The notes under the pieces: generated by a model
Databases searched by the model: none
Told to the model about the DNA's origin: nothing
Seen by the model: the letters and a program-made list of their open reading frames with translations, nothing else
Part shown: positions 11,143 to 19,300 of the stretch, piece by piece
How positions within the stretch are numbered: the first letter of the stretch is position 1
How the letters are laid out: each line of letters opens with the position of its first letter
Program-made: the position numbers and the translations under genes
NCBI GenBank assembly: GCA_947493035.1
Contig: CANLOW010000001.1
Location: 186,001 to 250,000 of the forward strand
DNA length: 64,000 nt
Reading direction: 5' to 3'
From: an uncultured Aquimarina sp.
GTDB taxonomy: Bacteria; Bacteroidota; Bacteroidia; Flavobacteriales; Flavobacteriaceae

Positions 11143-11643
11143 TTACTTCGAGTCCCCTATAAACCCTTCAATATCTTTATCAAACAAATAATACCCTGAG
11201 CGATCATCCCCTAGAATATTTAGTTTATCTAATAAAGTTCGAGCTGTAGCTTCTTCCTCTAACTGTTCGGTTACATACCATTGCATAAAATTATGCACAT
11301 TGTAATCCTTCTTTTCTAAACATTCAAAAATTACTTTATTGATTTGTTCGGTGACGAAAATTTCACTGTTTAAGAATTTCTCAAATAAAGCTTTAAGAGA
11401 ATCAAATTCTAATATTGGTGCGTCCAAGGCTGGTACTAGTACTTTTCCGCTACGTTCGTTGACAAACTTGACCAATTTGGTCATATGCAATCGTTCTTCT
11501 TCAGACTGGCTGTAGAAAAAATTTGCAATTCCACTATATCCTGCCGCATCTGCCCATGAAGCCATCGCTAAATATTGCATGGATGCTTGGGCTTCAAACT
11601 TAATCTGGTCATTTAATAATTTTTCTATAGATGCTTTCATCAT
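11143..11643 (-). CDS. ftnA: Non-heme ferritin
   Basis: This cytoplasmic iron-storage protein of 166 residues (or 165 from the second of two adjacent ATGs) has the four-helix ferritin fold. Counting from the second Met, the ferroxidase ligands Glu16, Glu49 and His52 (SEEERLH) are visible, with later acidic ligands in FLNSEIFVTEQIN and WYVTEQLEEEA. Length and spacing match the FtnA type; no heme-binding Met as in bacterioferritin is evident. It lies just downstream of the PepSY reductase gene on the same strand with a 74-bp gap, in the middle of an iron-acquisition block, so storage sits beside uptake. Confidence 0.95.
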   Translation of the reverse strand: MMKASIEKLLNDQIKFEAQASMQYLAMASWADAAGYSGIANFFYSQSEEERLHMTKLVKFVNERSGKVLVPALDAPILEFDSLKALFEKFLNSEIFVTEQINKVIFECLEKKDYNVHNFMQWYVTEQLEEEATARTLLDKLNILGDDRSGYYLFDKDIEGFIGDSK

Positions 11644-11717: not shown

Positions 11718-13292
11718 CTAAGCTAATTCCTCATTTGTCTTCTCTCTCTTTTGATTTTTAAATAAAATAATCATAGAAATAATTCCTAAAAGAAACCAAG
11801 TAATATCTACATGAGCTACTGATCTATTGTAGCTATTGAATACATCCCATACCCAATCCCTTGTAATGATTCCATTAAAAATAGGGGTCCCAAAGCTTAG
11901 TATTGAAAAAAGTATGAGGTTAAGGTTTGTTATGGTTCTAAAGGATTTCATTAATAAACCAGAAGAGAAAAACAGCAACCAACCACTAAAGAAAATAGCA
12001 TTCACATAAAAGACACGATTTTCAACATGCAAAGGAATTAGTTTATTGCCCCAAAACATAAGTGCTACAGCAGATACTAACCCTAATGTTAAAGACAAAT
12101 AAATCCTAGTTGTTTTAAAGTGAAATTGTCGTTGTTTATCGCTATACTTTTTATTATCTCGAGCACTATACCAAAGCATATTTCCACTCGTAATTACGTA
12201 ACACGTAATCAATGCTAAAATGAAATAAATAACCTTGAGTCCTAATCCTCCAAAAGTCACATAATGCAATTTGATCAAAAGTGCATAAGTTGAGGAAACA
12301 TATGATTTTTTATAAGGAATACTTCTGTAAGCTATAGCACCATCTTTTAAATTAAAAACAGTGGTTCCATCCCCCATAATACCTTTATGATCGGTATAAT
12401 ATACTGTTGCTGTGCCATCCTGTTTTTTAAAATTCTTTAAAAAGATTTTATGAATATGAAAATTACTGTATTCTTCTGTAATATTTTTATACAAACTATT
12501 TAATGAGATGGCATTGGTCTGTTCGCTAGCATTTTTATCATATTGGATAGCAAATTCTGGGCGAATAATTTCTGCAATTTTCTCTCGATCACCGTCAAAC
12601 AAATATAAACTAGGAAGTAACAATAAGATTGATAGCCCCAACAGTGCTCCTGACATCCCATAGATAAGCTGTATAGGAAGTGTTAAAAAACCTAGTGAAA
12701 TATGGCTTTCAGTCCAAATACGCTTCCATTTTCCTTTCCATTGAAATGCATGGAATTTTTCTATAATATTTTTCCAATGTATCAGTAAACCAGTGACCAT
12801 CGCAAAGATTAAAAAAAAGCCCGCAAAACCAGATATATATATTCCTATAACAGGTATTTGTCTTAAGTAATGAAGCCTATATATAGTGTTTATTAAAGTA
12901 GTATGTTTTGGTAAGCCTTCATAATACATATATGACCTTGGGTCTATACTTGCATTTTTTCGTTTTACTTTTCCATTAGCACCTTCAACGGCATAAAACA
13001 GTTCAATAAAAGGATTTGTTTTTTCAGGAGGAATTATTGTAGTCCCTTCATCTAATAATAAACAATGATTATTTGATTTCAATACTGCTATCACTTTATC
13101 ATAATCTACTTCATCAGGGCCTTTAAAACGTGCCATAGGGTTTTCCCAACGGTATACTTCCTCTTTAAAAAAAGAAACGGCCCCACAAAAGAAAATAACA
13201 AACAACACAAAGCTTAATACAATACCCGATACCGTATGCGTATGAAAGAGCACATTATGTAATCTTTTTGGCAGTGGTTTTAACTTACTCAT
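11718..13292 (-). CDS. PepSY-domain inner-membrane protein, probable siderophore-iron reductase
   Basis: I start at ATG 13292, which overlaps the stop of the upstream gene as ATGA; the longer open frame back to 13400 only repeats the other gene's DNA. The 524 residues begin KPLPKRLHNVLFHTHTVSG, with a His-rich first helix typical of PepSY-associated TM proteins (PiuB/FpvG type). About four helices alternate with a large periplasmic part; conserved His residues occur in LHYLRQIP, ESHISLGFLTLP and LLIKLHYVTFGG. Members reduce ferric siderophores in the periplasm (FpvG) or form part of the Bacteroides XusC system, using heme in the membrane; here that is inferred. It is last in a three-gene operon with the DUF3649- and DUF3325-like genes and divergent from the TonB receptor. 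Confidence 0.85.
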   Translation of the reverse strand: MSKLKPLPKRLHNVLFHTHTVSGIVLSFVLFVIFFCGAVSFFKEEVYRWENPMARFKGPDEVDYDKVIAVLKSNNHCLLLDEGTTIIPPEKTNPFIELFYAVEGANGKVKRKNASIDPRSYMYYEGLPKHTTLINTIYRLHYLRQIPVIGIYISGFAGFFLIFAMVTGLLIHWKNIIEKFHAFQWKGKWKRIWTESHISLGFLTLPIQLIYGMSGALLGLSILLLLPSLYLFDGDREKIAEIIRPEFAIQYDKNASEQTNAISLNSLYKNITEEYSNFHIHKIFLKNFKKQDGTATVYYTDHKGIMGDGTTVFNLKDGAIAYRSIPYKKSYVSSTYALLIKLHYVTFGGLGLKVIYFILALITCYVITSGNMLWYSARDNKKYSDKQRQFHFKTTRIYLSLTLGLVSAVALMFWGNKLIPLHVENRVFYVNAIFFSGWLLFFSSGLLMKSFRTITNLNLILFSILSFGTPIFNGIITRDWVWDVFNSYNRSVAHVDITWFLLGIISMIILFKNQKREKTNEELA

Positions 13293-13570
13293 TTCGTTAA
13301 AATTATAATAGGAACAAACAATACCAAAAGCCCTAATAGCGCCCAAAGTACCAACCGTATAGATTTGGATAAAAAAACAAAAAGCATAAATCCAGTCCAA
13401 ACTAAGAAACTACTGTAAATAGAAGTCCCAACAAGATGTTTTCTATCAGCAATCAAAGTACCAATGCCAACATGAATTAGACTAGTAACAATATAGCCTC
13501 CTAATATTGCTAATGTCATCTTAGCCCAGCGTTGTTTAGAATTCGATAGATATTTTGGGTTTGCAGGCAT
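13289..13570 (-). CDS. Small membrane protein, DUF3649-like (siderophore-uptake associated)
   Basis: A 93-residue protein with three membrane helices (about 18-38, 47-66, 70-90). Its position just before a PepSY reductase and after a DUF3325-like gene, and its size, match DUF3649 (FpvH-like) proteins that accompany FpvG-type reductases. Starts ATG 13570, 2 bp after the previous stop; its TGA overlaps the next ATG by 2 bp, so translation is likely coupled. The assignment rests on size, topology and context more than on sequence motifs. Confidence 0.65.
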   Translation of the reverse strand: MPANPKYLSNSKQRWAKMTLAILGGYIVTSLIHVGIGTLIADRKHLVGTSIYSSFLVWTGFMLFVFLSKSIRLVLWALLGLLVLFVPIIILTK

Positions 13571-13572
13571 AA

Positions 13573-13881
13573 TTAAATAGAAAAAAACACGGTTATTAAT
13601 AATGATATTACTAGAAAGAAAAAGAAGAAGAATTTACTTAATGGAAGAAATATATGCTGTATCGCAAAAGTCAATGTAATGGCTAATAACGAAAATACAA
13701 TGGCTGTCGACCATCCCATTTGCTGTTGTAAATTCAGCACACCAACCCCACACAAACCAAAACACAAAAAGTAAGTATACCAACTATTCTTATTTAAGAA
13801 AAAATTCACCCTTGCAAAATAACTAGGGTAATAGTTTGACTTAGAAAATATTAGCACCGTTGAGATATAAAAAAAAGCCAT
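13573..13881 (-). CDS. Small membrane protein, DUF3325-like (siderophore-uptake associated)
   Basis: A 102-residue, mainly hydrophobic protein: a first helix, a polar stretch SKSNYYPSYFARVNFFLNKN, then helices at about 35-50, 55-75 and 80-100. DUF3325 proteins have this plan and occur with PepSY reductases and DUF3649 proteins in siderophore loci. It is first in the operon; the start codon is 21 bp from a candidate -7 box. A run of Phe codons (KFFFFFFLV) is made of A/T homopolymer on the DNA and could be a slippage site. Family assignment is tentative. Confidence 0.55.
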   Translation of the reverse strand: MAFFYISTVLIFSKSNYYPSYFARVNFFLNKNSWYTYFLCFGLCGVGVLNLQQQMGWSTAIVFSLLAITLTFAIQHIFLPLSKFFFFFFLVISLLITVFFSI

Positions 13882-13901: not shown

Positions 13902-13909
13902 CAAAACTA
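13902..13909 (-). promoter_or_regulatory. -7 element of the DUF3325-DUF3649-PepSY operon
   Basis: The minus strand reads TAGTTTTG, a TAnnTTTG match, 21 bp before the first start codon of the operon. The candidate operator at 13921-13940 lies just upstream of it, so one site could control both divergent promoters. Confidence 0.5.
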
Positions 13910-13920
13910 ATATTTATTTT

Positions 13921-13940
13921 TATTTAGAACTAATTAAAAC
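13921..13940 (+). promoter_or_regulatory. Candidate iron-responsive operator between divergent uptake operons
   Basis: The 20-mer begins TATTTAGAA and ends TTAAAAC. It shares 16 of 20 positions with a site upstream of flavodoxin (18889-18908, other strand), and in both cases lies 4-5 bp upstream of an identical TATATTTG box. A repressor bound here would cover the space between -33 and -7. Fur is the natural candidate because the controlled genes are iron-uptake and iron-sparing genes, but the regulator is inferred. Confidence 0.5.
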
Positions 13941-13944
13941 TATG

Positions 13945-13952
13945 TATATTTG
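13945..13952 (+). promoter_or_regulatory. -7 element of the TonB receptor operon
   Basis: TATATTTG is an exact TAnnTTTG match, 33 bp before the receptor ATG and 4 bp after the candidate operator. Confidence 0.6.
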
Positions 13953-13985
13953 AGCGCTCAATATTTTTATTGAATCTAAATAAAT

Positions 13986-16382
13986 ATGAAAAAATCATTA
14001 CTATTACTACTATTAACTTGTTGTTTAGGCACTCTATATGCACAACAAAAAGTTGCCTACACCGGCCGTATTACGGATATTAATAAATTACCTATTCAGT
14101 ATGCTACAATAAATGCTGATGATGGTGCTGCTTATGCAATTACTAATGAAAAAGGAAGTTTTGAACTACAGCTTACCAAAGGCTCTCACATCATAAAGAT
14201 TGAGTTTTTGGGCTACCAATCTATTGTTACCAAGGTAATGGTAGAAAAAGCATCATTTAATAATAATTACACTTTAAAAGAATCTTCTCAAGGGTTTGAA
14301 GCGGTAACTATCGAAGCCGAAACTAAAGAAGAGAAAAAAGAATCTCAAATCATTACCGTGGAAAGCATTTCATTAGAGAATGTTGAGGCAAAAATAAACA
14401 TCATTACTGATGAAATCGAAAAAGCATCTGGTGTTCGTGTACGTAGATCTGGGTCTTTAGGAGATAATGCACAAATTACCCTAAATGGGCTTTCTGGTAA
14501 TGCTGTCCGAACTTTTATAGATGGTATACCTTTAGAGTTCTTATACCCTGGTCAAAACATTGCAAATATCCCCTTAACCGATATCGAAAATGTTGAAATC
14601 TACAAAGGGGTATTACCTTCTGAACTTTCTGCTGATGCTCTCGGGGGTGGTATTAACTTAATCACTAAAAGGAAAGATAAAAACAAACTAAAAGCTTCCT
14701 ACTCCTTAGGATCTTTTAATACTCATCGAGGAAATCTGTACCTAAATCTTGTAGACAGACAATCAAACTTTATCAATTTTTCTGCTGGGATAGATTACAG
14801 TGATAATGATTACACCTTTAAGGCGCCTGTAATCATCTCGAATCCTTTCGGCTCGCAATTAACTCCAATAGCAATAGGAAGTTTTAGAATAAAGCGTTTT
14901 CATGACCGGTACAGACAACAATACTCGAGTGTTAGTTTAGGAACTTATGCTAAAAAATGGACCGATGAAGCTTCACTAAATTTTAATTATCAAAGAAGCC
15001 ATAGACAAATCAATAATAATTTTAGAATTAATGAAATTGCTATTGGTGAAGCTACAGATAGACGTGAGAATATAGCTTTAATAGCAAAATATAAAAAAGC
15101 TTTGTTTAACAATCATTGGAAGATAGGAGCCACCGGAAGTTATAGCGAAGAAATACAAACTTTTAAAGACACCTCTAGAAATGTCTATAATTGGCTAGGT
15201 CAAGTTATCCGACAACAGCCTCTTAGAGGTGCCGAATTTACAGGAGCAAACCCTGTAATAAGAGATAACACTACGGTCAATTGGTCTACACGATTGACAT
15301 CTAATCTTAAGCTATTCAAAAATCATTTTTGGATTACTTCATTTAACTATAATAAACAAGAAAGGGATTTAATTCTAAATCGAATTACTAGGGTTATAGA
15401 GGCTCCCACGCAAGTAGTTAAAAAACAAACAATAGCTTCCGAATTAAAGGGGTCTGCATTTAATAAAAAACTAGAATATTTCGGTGGAGGTAAGTTTTAT
15501 AATTTCGAAGCTACTCTTACGCCCAATACTGATAATGATTTCACTTTCAAGAATTCTGACGATTTTTTCGGCTTCTTTACAGGGCTAAAGTATAAACCTT
15601 TTAATAATTTGACACTTCGGGGCTCTTATGAACGCGCCATCCTATCTCCTACTATTTTTCAACTGGCTGGTGACCCACCTAATTTACTTCCTAACCCTGG
15701 GTTGAATCCTGAAGAAAGTGACAATATTAATGCTGGAATAATATTTAGGAAACGGGTAGATGAAAACTTCAGGCTTAAAGCAGATATTGGTGGCTATTAC
15801 CGATACCGAAGAAAAGAAATATTTCTAACAACTAGTGGTCCTAATCAGCAATTTGTAAACTTTTTCGATACTAAAACTAGAGGAATTGAAGCTGAACTAG
15901 AATTAGAATTTCTTAAGAAAGTTAAGTTTGTTACTGATGTTACGGTACAAGAAAAGATTCTTGACAAATTAGCATTACCAGAAGAGGGAAACAATTTTGA
16001 AGTAGACCCAAGAGAGTTTGGCCTTGGAACTCCTGTCCCTAATACTCCTAGCTTTTTTTATGATATTGAATTAAACTATAACCCTACCATATTTTCTGAA
16101 GACAAAATTAAAACATCGTTTTACACCTTATTTAACTACTCCGATACTTTCAACTTTTTAGGCCTTGGAGGCAGTAATACCAAACAAAATAGCCCTGAAC
16201 GCTTCGTGTTTCAACAAAATCGATGGGATATGGGTTGCTCCATAGAATTAATCAAATACAATATTACAGCTGCATTTAATGCTCGTAACATACTAGATGA
16301 AGAGTTGTTTGACAATTTTAGTATCCCTAGAGCTGGAAGAAGTTTTGACATCAAATTAATTTACGAACTAGACAAATTTTAA
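13986..16382 (+). CDS. TonB-dependent outer-membrane receptor, probable siderophore receptor
   Basis: The 798 residues comprise a signal peptide (1-19, ending LYAQ), a carboxypeptidase-regulatory-like beta-sandwich (about 22-105, with TGRITDINKLPIQYATI and GYQSIVTKV), a plug domain (about 120-235, with VRVRRSGSLGDNAQITLNGL and VEIYKGVLPSELSADALGG) and a 22-strand barrel to the C-terminal YELDKF. It lacks SusC-type features. It is followed after 18 bp by a lipoprotein gene and divergent from the PepSY reductase operon, an arrangement like XusA-XusB/XusC of Bacteroides or Fpv loci, so a ferric (xeno)siderophore is the likely substrate. The candidate operator upstream suggests induction by iron shortage. 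Confidence 0.88.
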   Translation: MKKSLLLLLLTCCLGTLYAQQKVAYTGRITDINKLPIQYATINADDGAAYAITNEKGSFELQLTKGSHIIKIEFLGYQSIVTKVMVEKASFNNNYTLKESSQGFEAVTIEAETKEEKKESQIITVESISLENVEAKINIITDEIEKASGVRVRRSGSLGDNAQITLNGLSGNAVRTFIDGIPLEFLYPGQNIANIPLTDIENVEIYKGVLPSELSADALGGGINLITKRKDKNKLKASYSLGSFNTHRGNLYLNLVDRQSNFINFSAGIDYSDNDYTFKAPVIISNPFGSQLTPIAIGSFRIKRFHDRYRQQYSSVSLGTYAKKWTDEASLNFNYQRSHRQINNNFRINEIAIGEATDRRENIALIAKYKKALFNNHWKIGATGSYSEEIQTFKDTSRNVYNWLGQVIRQQPLRGAEFTGANPVIRDNTTVNWSTRLTSNLKLFKNHFWITSFNYNKQERDLILNRITRVIEAPTQVVKKQTIASELKGSAFNKKLEYFGGGKFYNFEATLTPNTDNDFTFKNSDDFFGFFTGLKYKPFNNLTLRGSYERAILSPTIFQLAGDPPNLLPNPGLNPEESDNINAGIIFRKRVDENFRLKADIGGYYRYRRKEIFLTTSGPNQQFVNFFDTKTRGIEAELELEFLKKVKFVTDVTVQEKILDKLALPEEGNNFEVDPREFGLGTPVPNTPSFFYDIELNYNPTIFSEDKIKTSFYTLFNYSDTFNFLGLGGSNTKQNSPERFVFQQNRWDMGCSIELIKYNITAAFNARNILDEELFDNFSIPRAGRSFDIKLIYELDKF

Positions 16383-16400
16383 AAAATAAATTCCTGACAA

Positions 16401-17807
16401 ATGAAAAAAATATACCCTTTAAGTTTTATAGCTATGGTGATATATGGATCACTACTATTAAACTCGTGTAACGATGAAGAATTAACATCAGAAGATGTTG
16501 CTCTTATTGTCAATGAAGTAATAAAAGCCAATCCTAAAACAGTTACAGACCCAGTAATAGACAAAGAAGATGACAAATATGCTTCGGAAGGATCAATTGT
16601 TGCTGCGGTGATCGAAAACACTTCAGAGAGCACTACTTTTCTTAAATATTTTGAGAATGACATCCCTTTAAATGTCGATACTGAATCAGGATCTGCTTTT
16701 ACTGAGTTTAATTCTAGATTTGTTTATAAAAACCAAATATTTACCGCTGACCCGCTTTCTAGTTCTAGAAGGAAATTAGCAAAGATGCAAGTGAATAAAG
16801 AAACAGGGCTTGTTGAAGTCGTAGACAATATTATTCTAACAAATAACCTACAAGGGGTTAGAATTATTAATGACAACACAGGAGTCTTTACTATTTCTAA
16901 AGAACGTAGACTCTTTATTTTTGACCCATCTACAATGCGTGTTAATGATGTAATCGATTTGCCGAATTCACAATTTATAAGTACTAATGATGATAACCAT
17001 TATATAAATTTACAATATCGAAAAAATGACAATCGTATTTTCTTATCACTATACACCGACTCAAATTCAACACCAGCTTTTTATGATGCTACCACCGTTT
17101 GGGTAGAGGTCATTAATTTAAATACTCGACAATGGGAAAAAACAATTTCTTATGATAATGCGCAGTATCCTATACAAAGAGGTGCCGACAATAATTTAGT
17201 AGATGAGGAAGGTAATGTATATATATTATGCCAAGGGTCTTATGGCTTAGATGGTAAAGCTTCTTTAGCTTCCACACAAGATTCTAGACCTCAATTTTTA
17301 AAAATTCCTGCAGGCAAAACAGACTTTGACCCTAATTATTCATTCAACCCTGTACAAGTAAACAATCCTTTATTAGCTGGTAATTTCTCTCAATTTGTTA
17401 CTGGTCCTGTCTTAGATAATGAAGGAAATGGATATGCTGCAATTACTACTGTTCCTGATGCTCCTAGAGTATTAGAATTGTTACGAAAATTTGCTACGAA
17501 TACCATAACCCCTGCCGAATCTGCTGAACTACGATTATTAGTTTTTAGTAACCCTACTTCAAAATGGGCAAAATTAAATTTTGACACCCAAAGCGTAGAA
17601 ATATTAGACATCCCAGTTACAGCTGCTTTTGCTTTTCCTATGAGTCACAGATATGGGGATGAAGACAATTTATATTTTAGTGTATTCAATCCATCCGAAT
17701 CTATTAATGCTATTTATGAATATTCCCCTGAGACAAACTCGTCTAATTTACTTTATAATGTAACTTCTGGTGGACAAGCAATTAATTATATTAAATTGAC
17801 CAAATAG
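16401..17807 (+). CDS. Surface lipoprotein, DUF4374/XusB-like putative siderophore-binding propeller
   Basis: The 468-residue protein has a lipoprotein signal (lipobox LLNSC, Cys23) and a helical linker (24-75), then a repetitive all-beta body with motifs such as NNLQGVRIINDNTGVF, RRLFIFDPSTMRVND and VDEEGNVYILCQGSYG. This looks like a beta-propeller, as in DUF4374 proteins. The Bacteroides member XusB is a surface lipoprotein that captures enterobactin for the receptor XusA. The gene is 18 bp downstream of the receptor gene and ends 48 bp before a large palindromic terminator. Family membership is from the overall plan and context, so the siderophore role is inference. Confidence 0.7.
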   Translation: MKKIYPLSFIAMVIYGSLLLNSCNDEELTSEDVALIVNEVIKANPKTVTDPVIDKEDDKYASEGSIVAAVIENTSESTTFLKYFENDIPLNVDTESGSAFTEFNSRFVYKNQIFTADPLSSSRRKLAKMQVNKETGLVEVVDNIILTNNLQGVRIINDNTGVFTISKERRLFIFDPSTMRVNDVIDLPNSQFISTNDDNHYINLQYRKNDNRIFLSLYTDSNSTPAFYDATTVWVEVINLNTRQWEKTISYDNAQYPIQRGADNNLVDEEGNVYILCQGSYGLDGKASLASTQDSRPQFLKIPAGKTDFDPNYSFNPVQVNNPLLAGNFSQFVTGPVLDNEGNGYAAITTVPDAPRVLELLRKFATNTITPAESAELRLLVFSNPTSKWAKLNFDTQSVEILDIPVTAAFAFPMSHRYGDEDNLYFSVFNPSESINAIYEYSPETNSSNLLYNVTSGGQAINYIKLTK

Positions 17808-17855
17808 TAGTCATTCTTTCTCTAAAGATATTTTATATCTAACAAGTAATACTAC

Positions 17856-17903
17856 TAAATAGTAAGAGGTCTTTACAACGTTGTAAAGACCTCTTACTAT
17901 TTA
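17856..17903. terminator. 48-nt perfect palindrome, likely strong bidirectional terminator
   Basis: Two 24-nt arms (17856-17879 and 17880-17903) are exact reverse complements with no spacer. The transcript would form a stem of about 22 bp with a minimal loop. It lies 48 bp after the stop of the lipoprotein gene and is followed by a weak T-rich tract, so termination of the receptor operon is the simplest role. The arm length and zero spacer are unusual compared with the other terminators in the window. Confidence 0.7.
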
Positions 17904-18304
17904 ATTCATTTTCTTTTTAAAACTATGCAATTCCCTATAGCGCTCAATGAGAACATAGCATTCTATCCTGCTTTTTTGTGCATTCGAACAACTTGCTGTT
18001 TCGAATCTTGTAGAGGTATTACGAGATTAGACCTATTAGAATATTAACTAGCTTAGAAAAAGCCTATAAAACATCTATATTGAATATAAAATAGAAGGAG
18101 AGGCTGGTAGTATTATACCATTTGGCATAATCAATAAAAGCCTAGCGGTTGCATTTATCTATTAACTCTAACTGTAAAGGGAGTGTTTTTGATCCGCCAG
18201 GCTTATTAGAAGTAACATTTCCGTTTGATATACGCCGGGGTTAGAATACTATGGAAAACTAACCCCTTTGTATATACCTAAAAACAAATGGAAAGTGCTT
18301 TATA
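17904..18304 (+). other. Gene-free stretch with decayed coding remnants
   Basis: No intact frame exists here. Plus-strand pieces still look protein-like but shift frame: EYKIEGEAGSIIPFGIINKS followed by LAVAFIY (near 18090-18165), KGSVFDPPGLLEVTFPFDI (near 18177-18235) and GLEYYGKLTPLYIPKNKWKV (near 18235-18297). Stops and frame changes separate them, so this seems to be a gene eroded by at least two indels. I do not recognise the family. It ends just short of the flavodoxin stop on the opposite strand. Confidence 0.45.
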
Positions 18305-18850
18305 TTATATTGTTATATGCTCTGCTAAAAGAACTGTATTCAATTCCTTTTTTACTTGATCGATCCATGTAGTTAATCGTTCATCATTTAATTGCGATTC
18401 ATTATCATTATCAAGTGCAAGTCCATAAAATTGACTTTCATCATCATCAACAAATGCAACAGAATCTGTATGTCGATAGCCTTCGGTAGGCCAGTAGCCT
18501 ATAACTTTGCCCCCGTTATCTATAACTACTTTAGCCAAAATACCGATGCCATCAACAAAATATTCTGCATATCCTATTTGGTCTCCTAGACCATATATCG
18601 CTACAATTTTATCTGTGAAATCTATAGCTTGAAAGTCATCAAAAAAAGTTTCCCAATCGCTTTGCAAGTCTCCATCATACCATGTAGATAATCCTAAAAC
18701 AAGTACTTTATACTGTTCTAAATCCTCGATAGTAGCATCTCCTATCTCCATTACTTCCAAATCATCACTACCCCAAATTTCAACAAAGTCTTTTGTGATA
18801 TCATCTGTAACCCCGGTATCAGATCCGTAAAACAATCCTATCTTTTCCAT
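18305..18850 (-). CDS. fldA: Flavodoxin, long-chain
   Basis: Flavodoxin is a soluble FMN electron carrier that replaces ferredoxin when iron is short. The 181 residues start MEKIGLFYGSDTGVTDDI, whose GSDTGVT is a variant of the GSSTGNTE phosphate loop; the FMN-ring segments are GLSTWYDGDLQSDW (about 54-67) and YGLGDQIGYAEYFVDG (about 86-101), and the later insertion places it in the long-chain class. It is transcribed alone, divergent from a small cysteine-rich protein. Its promoter region carries TATATTTG at 18876-18883 and, 5 bp further upstream, the candidate operator also found before the TonB receptor, fitting iron control. Confidence 0.93.
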   Translation of the reverse strand: MEKIGLFYGSDTGVTDDITKDFVEIWGSDDLEVMEIGDATIEDLEQYKVLVLGLSTWYDGDLQSDWETFFDDFQAIDFTDKIVAIYGLGDQIGYAEYFVDGIGILAKVVIDNGGKVIGYWPTEGYRHTDSVAFVDDDESQFYGLALDNDNESQLNDERLTTWIDQVKKELNTVLLAEHITI

Positions 18851-18875
18851 AATTCGATTTTCACTGATTTCAATT

Positions 18876-18883
18876 CAAATATA
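18876..18883 (-). promoter_or_regulatory. -7 element of flavodoxin
   Basis: Minus-strand TATATTTG, identical to the -7 box of the TonB receptor operon, 25 bp before the flavodoxin ATG. Confidence 0.6.
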
Positions 18884-18888
18884 ATACT

Positions 18889-18908
18889 ATTTTAAATTAT
18901 TCTAAATA
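18889..18908 (-). promoter_or_regulatory. Candidate iron-responsive operator upstream of flavodoxin
   Basis: Read on the minus strand, this 20-mer starts TATTTAGAAT and ends TTTAAAAT; 16 of 20 positions equal the site at 13921-13940. The spacing to the -7 box is 5 bp here and 4 bp there. The centre TTAGAAT-A-ATTTAAA is an imperfect 7-1-7 dyad as expected for a Fur-type site. Confidence 0.5.
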
Positions 18909-18943
18909 AAAATAATATCTATATTTAAAAAAAATATAATTCA

Positions 18944-19300
18944 ATGCATTATTTAAAACCTGTATACCACAATAGTATTGGTACTACTTATATTATAACA
19001 AGTGATTTAGAAGAGAATAATTTTCAAAAAATTCAACTGCAATTAGCCGAACTAGCCATATTACTTTCTATACAAGAATTAAAACACCTATTAAAAATTA
19101 TAGATACTTCTAGGAAAGGCTGTGAATGTAAAGGCTGTGGAAAAAAATACTGTTTCAAATTAATCAAATGCGATACCACTTTTGCACAAATACATTTTAA
19201 AACAACTGCTAAAAATGTAAATGGATTAGAAGAGCTAATTCAAGGCACTTTGTTCGAATTAGCTATGGAAGATTTATTAACAGCAAATGAGATTGACTAA
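18944..19300 (+). CDS. Small cysteine-rich protein, unknown
   Basis: A 118-residue soluble protein starting at ATG 18944. The first 50 residues include a helical, Leu-rich part (NFQKIQLQLAELAILLSIQELKHLL). Residues about 59-76 carry a compact cysteine cluster, C-E-C-K-G-C-G-K-K-Y-C-x5-C, which could bind a metal or an Fe-S cluster. The rest is a short beta part and a C-terminal helix. It is divergent from flavodoxin and shares the intergenic region holding the candidate iron operator, so an iron-linked role is possible. I do not recognise the family. Confidence 0.7.
   Translation: MHYLKPVYHNSIGTTYIITSDLEENNFQKIQLQLAELAILLSIQELKHLLKIIDTSRKGCECKGCGKKYCFKLIKCDTTFAQIHFKTTAKNVNGLEELIQGTLFELAMEDLLTANEID

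Follow-up and report, generated by a model that had tools for sequence, protein, structure and literature searches.

The stretch of DNA analysed here, called the window below, comprises 64,000 nucleotides of contig CANLOW010000001.1 from an uncultured Aquimarina sp., and our subject is a Fur-box-like element that recurs in its promoters. Two copies, sites A and B, lie ahead of the gene for a TonB-dependent siderophore-type receptor, and a third lies between the gene for a long-chain flavodoxin and a divergent gene for a conserved small protein (Table 1). A sequence-only reading had aligned two 20-mers, TATTTAGAACTAATTAAAAC at 13921-13940 (plus strand) and TATTTAGAATAATTTAAAAT at 18889-18908 (minus strand), and proposed that one iron operator serves both receptor and flavodoxin. 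Reading the sequence bears out that the 20-mers are alike at 16 of 20 positions and, with the coordinates recomputed, that an identical TATATTTG lies 4 and 5 bp beyond them. TAnnTTTG is what we take to be the Bacteroidetes -7 consensus. Relative to the first base of the -7 element, the box is centered at -15 at the flavodoxin, at -14 for site A and at +27 for site B; the centers of sites A and B are 41 bp apart. All three are promoter positions, with similar ones in relatives, at which an occupied box would block RNA polymerase.

Table 1. Features of the window discussed in the text (aa, amino acids; positions counted from the first letter of the window).
Feature	Position	Strand	Remarks
PepSY-associated membrane protein gene, possible divergent iron-uptake gene	11718..13400	-	PF03929, 155.2 bits
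First open frame of divergent transcript, 102 aa, no family	13573..13881	-	Toward PepSY_TM gene
Possible -7 element TAGTTTTG of divergent transcript	13902..13909	-	Sequence read
Site A, Fur-box-like (first site of the sequence-only reading)	13920..13942	+	Center 13931; 16.1 bits with flavodoxin-derived matrix
-7 promoter element TATATTTG of TonB receptor gene	13945..13952	+	Sequence read
Site B, Fur-box-like, second receptor site	13961..13983	-	Center 13972; 22.1 bits; between -7 element and ATG 13986
TonB-dependent siderophore-type receptor, 798 aa, related to myxochelin receptor MxcH	13986..16382	+	PF07715, PF00593, PF13715; NF038079
Long-chain flavodoxin, 181 aa	18305..18850	-	TIGR01752 185.3 bits, above cut-off 146.75; PF00258
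-7 element TATATTTG of flavodoxin gene	18876..18883	-	Sequence read
Flavodoxin site, Fur-box-like (second site of the sequence-only reading)	18887..18909	-	Center 18898; 30.7 bits; common to divergent small gene
-7-like element TATATTTA of divergent small gene	18920..18927	+	TATATTTG or TAAATTTG at that place in 7/8 relatives examined
Conserved small protein, 118 aa, Cys-x-x-Cys pair	18944..19300	+	Divergent from flavodoxin across same box

Taken by itself, a 16/20 match between two AT-rich promoters is no more than chance and is weak evidence. For the two 100-bp promoter stretches, the best pair of 20-mers is identical at 17 positions, a value that shuffled 100-bp stretches reach or exceed in 14 of 300 trials; 16 or more is reached in 85 of 300. 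The consensus of the two sites, with up to 3 mismatches allowed, is found at 2 places in the window against 1.61 expected, and at 128 places in the organism's own genome against 90 for a reversed control. The pair counts as significant because it is conserved in other genomes, and only through that; this conservation speaks against chance similarity, which the comparison with shuffles had left standing.

The conservation is plainest at the flavodoxin gene. We collected 24 flavodoxin loci, from records titled Aquimarina, Tamlana, Polaribacter, Wenyingzhuangia, Ochrovirga and uncultured Flavobacteriaceae or Bacteroidia, and used 23, one (L078) being excluded with its upstream DNA missing. Within 100 bp before the gene, all 23 carry a block that agrees with TATTTAGAATAAATAAAAAT at 15 or more of 20 positions. 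TAnnTTTG follows the block in 20 of these relatives, the exact motif lacking in the other three, and the center of the box lies 12-16 bp upstream of the first -7 base in 19 and 23 bp upstream in one. The window's flavodoxin site and site A both agree with this distance.

A matrix built from these 23 sites, all of them from other genomes and none from the window, was then used to scan the window. The flavodoxin site scores 30.7 bits, followed by 13960-13985 on the minus strand (22.1) and 13918-13943 on the plus strand (16.1); after these come the same places on the opposite strand, and then nothing above 7.2 bits. Both receptor sites are thus recovered unprompted from the flavodoxin promoters of other genomes, and the order is unchanged when the 5 Aquimarina-labelled sites are removed from the matrix. 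The receptor site noticed by the sequence-only reading is a real match, but the weaker of two, the stronger site B having been missed. In a 400 kb sample of the own genome the maximum is 17.7 bits, and of 399500 positions one reaches 16.1 and none 22.1. The flavodoxin consensus with up to 3 mismatches is found at 7 places in the whole own genome, and at 0 when reversed: two at a locus of imelysin, DUF4856, haem-binding and TonB genes, one each at site B and the flavodoxin site, and the remaining three between an AraC-type gene and hemA, before pta-ackA and inside a ribonuclease III gene. Site A is not among the seven.

Across the genus, the pattern TTATTTAGANNAANTANAAATAA with at most one mismatch was scanned in 52 genomes, our own included, and matches 330 times against 8 for the reversed pattern, a 40-fold enrichment, with only 1 match in the own genome. 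Since flavodoxin and receptor sites supplied the pattern, the result is partly circular for those two gene groups; for the other targets it is not. The site is intergenic in 51 of 55 fetched stretches, which cover all 59 matches of 7 genomes, whereas 86% of the own-genome sample is coding. Among 65 flanking proteins, for which 25 of 32 families were listed, we find 13 with a TonB plug domain, 7 DUF4856 proteins, 7 with an AraC-type helix-turn-helix, 6 imelysins, 5 pyridoxal phosphate (PLP) decarboxylases, 4 NqrA, 4 DUF6607 proteins, 4 with a type IX secretion system (T9SS) plug domain and 1 ribonucleotide reductase small chain; many are orthologues from different genomes, hence not independent. 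The check proposed at the outset, a matrix scan of relatives, is favorable, with boxes before TonB receptors, flavodoxin, imelysins and siderophore decarboxylases. The box recurs before iron-uptake and iron-sparing genes and is rare elsewhere, with exceptions such as pta-ackA and the T9SS plug genes.

The window's receptor scores 280.7 bits with NF038079, under the cut-off of 925, and even the best-matching homologues from the genus share just 28-33% identity with it. Of 27 genus receptors, 26 have a site of at least 16 bits within 100 bp before the start of homology, L085 being the one without. In 23 of these 27 the center of the box is 26-30 bp downstream of the first TAnnTTTG base, like site B. 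The claim of one and the same spacing from the -7 element consequently holds at flavodoxin promoters and fails at most receptors. Three of the nearest homologues, at 31-34% identity, have the box upstream of the -7 element, like site A (L080 at -17, L260 at -26, L261 at -17), and in L262, the next nearest, no box was found. Both placements therefore occur within the receptor family, and the window's receptor promoter carries both. A second matrix was made from receptor promoters of relatives, with the 17 sites first identified there as input. It puts site B (21.0 bits) on top and the flavodoxin site (18.5) next, against a maximum of 14.3 in the 400 kb sample. Among the own genome's TonB-plug genes (31 matched; 30 scanned over 1.5 kb upstream of the plug domain, one having given no locus), the window's receptor alone has a strong site, the next scoring 14.3 and then 5.6 bits; for the receptor of the imelysin locus, the boxes stand at a greater distance upstream in the gene cluster.

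The claim that nothing else ties the two promoters together proved wrong. In the window, about 2 kb separate the flavodoxin gene from the receptor gene. Eight relative loci were fetched, some of them selected because two matches lay 1.5 kb apart; in four (L252 of G004, L254 of G019, L255 of G020 and L256 of G068) the small-protein gene, a box of 36-37 bits and a flavodoxin homologue with 68-72% identity stand together beside a box-led siderophore synthesis operon with a PLP decarboxylase and an IucA/IucC synthetase. On the other side, L252, L254 and L256 have a further box and then a TonB receptor; in L255 the further box is followed by a PepSY_TM gene, with no receptor seen in the stretch.

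The small-protein gene is upstream of flavodoxin in 13 of the 23 relatives. As a -7-like element lies on either side of the flavodoxin box, the box can serve both genes. The two cysteines of the small protein are invariant in 12 aligned sequences, and its predicted fold (pLDDT, the predicted local distance difference test score, 79.9) has no match in the PDB at E <= 0.001. A distant copy (29% identity, E-value 2e-15; DUF6686-like, with 23.7 bits against a cut-off of 23.9) is found beside another box of the own genome, and in 6 of 7 genomes a box lies 27-31 bp from the start of a relative of 115-118 aa. Each of the two own-genome copies, distant as they are, is back to back with an iron-related gene across a Fur-type box, the partner being flavodoxin in one case and a haem-binding protein in the other. 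Tentatively, and giving the idea somewhat less than an even chance, we suggest that the small cysteine proteins at Fur-type boxes are a new iron-starvation family, perhaps flavodoxin partners or maturation factors, or proteins that handle iron or haem, produced only under iron shortage, and that the receptor's paired operators may act together as a tight double lock.

The identity of the element is suggested by Riemerella anatipestifer, whose genus is the one for which our literature search found a tested Fur box. The box of this species is given as 5'-ATTTAGAATTATTCTAAAT-3', with gel shifts for four promoters, in excerpts from a paper that also mentions -7/-33 promoters (PMC5609570), and, according to excerpts from a second paper, a box of this kind also gave a gel shift at rhuB (PMC10986502). 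The 9-1-9 axis and the half-site ATTTAGAAT are common to the Riemerella box and the element described here; the flavodoxin site agrees with the Riemerella consensus at 17 of 19 positions, and sites A and B at 14 of 19 each. With up to 3 mismatches this consensus is found at 24 places in the own genome against 14 for the control, an uninformative excess, although the two best places are the flavodoxin site and the pta-ackA site. The shared axis and half-site, the excess of 330 matches over 8, the intergenic position in 51 of 55 stretches and the iron-gene targets together indicate that the element is very probably the known flavobacterial Fur box. The sequence-only reading was thus right to call it an iron operator, one shared by a siderophore-type receptor and flavodoxin, which the matrix, the genus enrichment, the flanking genes and the related receptors support well; the element is not new, as it matches a box tested by gel shift.

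Between relA/spoT and purA the genome carries a Fur gene (PF01475, 87.3 bits, over the cut-off), and the best solved relatives of its product are Fur proteins (4ray, E-value 2.7e-18). Flavobacterium psychrophilum has a single Fur, also with purA downstream, according to excerpts from PMC9331221. Each of the three other Fur-family proteins of the genome has two or three Cys-x-x-Cys motifs, which are absent from the relA-fur-purA copy, and we infer a Zur/PerR-like role for them. We infer further that the relA-fur-purA copy is the binder, that it represses by binding, and that site A may also control the PepSY gene.

Judging from sequence comparison, we consider it highly likely that the sites at 13920-13942, 13961-13983 and 18887-18909 are Fur operators that confer iron-dependent repression on the receptor, flavodoxin and the small protein. 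For the flavodoxin site and site B as predicted operators our confidence is high, while for site A the balance tips toward the same function. When iron is sufficient, Fur-Fe(II) dimers would occupy the three sites. At flavodoxin this would put Fur immediately ahead of the -7 element, on DNA that RNA polymerase has to bind; at the receptor it would put Fur to either side of that promoter's own -7 element, at two sites 41 bp from each other. So placed, Fur would shut out or block the polymerase. With iron exhausted, Fur would leave, and the receptor, flavodoxin and small cysteine protein would be made together.

Several observations weigh against this interpretation. The pta-ackA promoter and the interior of the ribonuclease III gene account for two of the seven best own-genome places, and the box is asymmetric. 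Of the four gel-shifted Riemerella boxes, three score 16.9, 12.2 and 8.8 with the flavodoxin matrix and the fourth, sprT, scores -17.0, so that one in four is unlike the window element; in a later Riemerella paper, in the portion available, the putative box is instead the classical GATAATGATAATCATTATC (PMC7976709). Receptors of other genera have weaker sites, with at least 10.9 bits (a level that the best score passes in 1% of 1000 random 1500-bp own-genome pieces) near the start in 18 of 29, and at least 16 bits in 9 of 29. The Fur candidate scores 73.9 bits with its best-matching NCBIfam Fur model, for which the cut-off is 220, and it is one of four Fur-family proteins in the genome. The set that includes the stretch with the fur gene (L136) was ranked, and none of its 25 best sites, which extend down to 1.0 bit, falls in that stretch, so there is no sign of fur autoregulation. 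Finally, site A scores only 8.6 bits with the receptor-derived matrix, and it is poorly palindromic, with 10 of 22 positions self-complementary compared with 16 of 22 in both the flavodoxin site and site B, which makes it weak as a Fur box on that measure.

It is accordingly possible, though we think it less likely than not, that site A is a chance or decayed match and the receptor is controlled by site B alone. The low score, the poor palindrome and the downstream position of the best site in 23 of 27 related receptors all favor this, while the flavodoxin matrix finds a single position as high in the 400 kb sample, and three of the nearest homologues share site A's upstream placement. A regulator other than the relA-fur-purA Fur could read the same element, for example any of the three further Fur-family proteins or a siderophore regulator of the AraC type: AraC-type genes make up 7 of the 65 flanking genes, one of them beside the receptor box in L252 and another beside a box in L255. 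We regard this as improbable, as the box also occurs at imelysin, DUF4856 and NqrA genes with no AraC gene at their flank, the other Fur-family proteins differ in their Cys-x-x-Cys motifs, and the half-site is that of the gel-shifted Riemerella box. That the block is instead a promoter-strengthening or -33-type element is very improbable: it is AT-rich and, in the flavodoxin promoters of 19 of 23 relatives, directly precedes the -7 element, but it lies downstream at 23 of 27 receptors, shows enrichment at iron genes, is near-palindromic at site B and at flavodoxin and, as a strong block, is absent from the 1.5 kb scanned for each of the 29 other TonB-plug genes of the own genome.

Site A, as a predicted Fur operator, may plausibly also serve the divergent PepSY operon on its other side, for which the minus-strand TAGTTTTG and the box before the PepSY gene in L255 may be compared. 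Beyond the PepSY gene lies a ferritin gene (11143-11643, minus strand), which has no box among the 15 best of the window.

Boxes elsewhere point to further candidate members of the iron response. At the imelysin locus of the own genome (G000:C1:124105-124877; L129 8104-8879), probably an iron or haem uptake operon, boxes of 25.1 and 33.5 bits flank a gene with a haem-binding domain and precede DUF4856, imelysin, HTTM and TonB receptor genes. At G000:C2:519093-519115 (L131 11082-11117), a box of 22.4 bits with an overlapping weaker one of 12.8 lies some 55-80 bp before pta-ackA, which suggests iron control of acetate metabolism. Four relatives (L204, L230, L236, L251) have a box between nqrA, of the Na+-pumping NADH dehydrogenase, and a T9SS plug-domain gene. 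In one further relative (L218 332-1306) a box lies 194 bp ahead of a ribonucleotide reductase small chain, possibly an iron-sparing isoform.

The regulation itself is a sound but ordinary example of known Fur control. What the analysis adds is that a guess from two sites has become a usable Fur-box matrix for Flavobacteriaceae outside Riemerella, that two promoter placements are revealed, before the -7 element at flavodoxin and after it at most receptors examined, and that the matrix flags an uncharacterized small protein as part of the iron response. As attempts to delete fur have failed in Flavobacterium columnare (PMC9618737) and F. psychrophilum (PMC9331221), both seen in excerpt, such an operator matrix offers a practical route to listing the regulon.

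In comparison with known systems, the nearest is that of Riemerella, whose receptor boxes also lie within about 100 bp of the start codons of iron-uptake receptors, and where one entry, ATTTAGAATAATTAAAAAA, found ahead of an oxidoreductase, closely resembles the flavodoxin box, with 20.9 bits. The window element, a predicted operator, differs in having one strong half-site and one degenerate (TTATTTAGAnnAAnTAnAAATAA) within a conserved block of about 23 bp. The classical Fur box of E. coli, GATAATGATAATCATTATC, as quoted in the excerpts from PMC5609570, is likewise an AT-rich inverted repeat that overlaps iron-gene promoters. Its half-site letters differ from those of the window element. Our literature search noticed no flavobacterial Fur regulon that includes flavodoxin, and it turned up no paper on an iron-repressed flavodoxin in Bacteroidetes. 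Iron-repressed flavodoxins occur in other bacteria, serving as an iron-free replacement of ferredoxin that is induced by lack of iron. Compared with these, the flavodoxin described here has its box in common with a divergent small protein, and four relatives have it within a siderophore locus.

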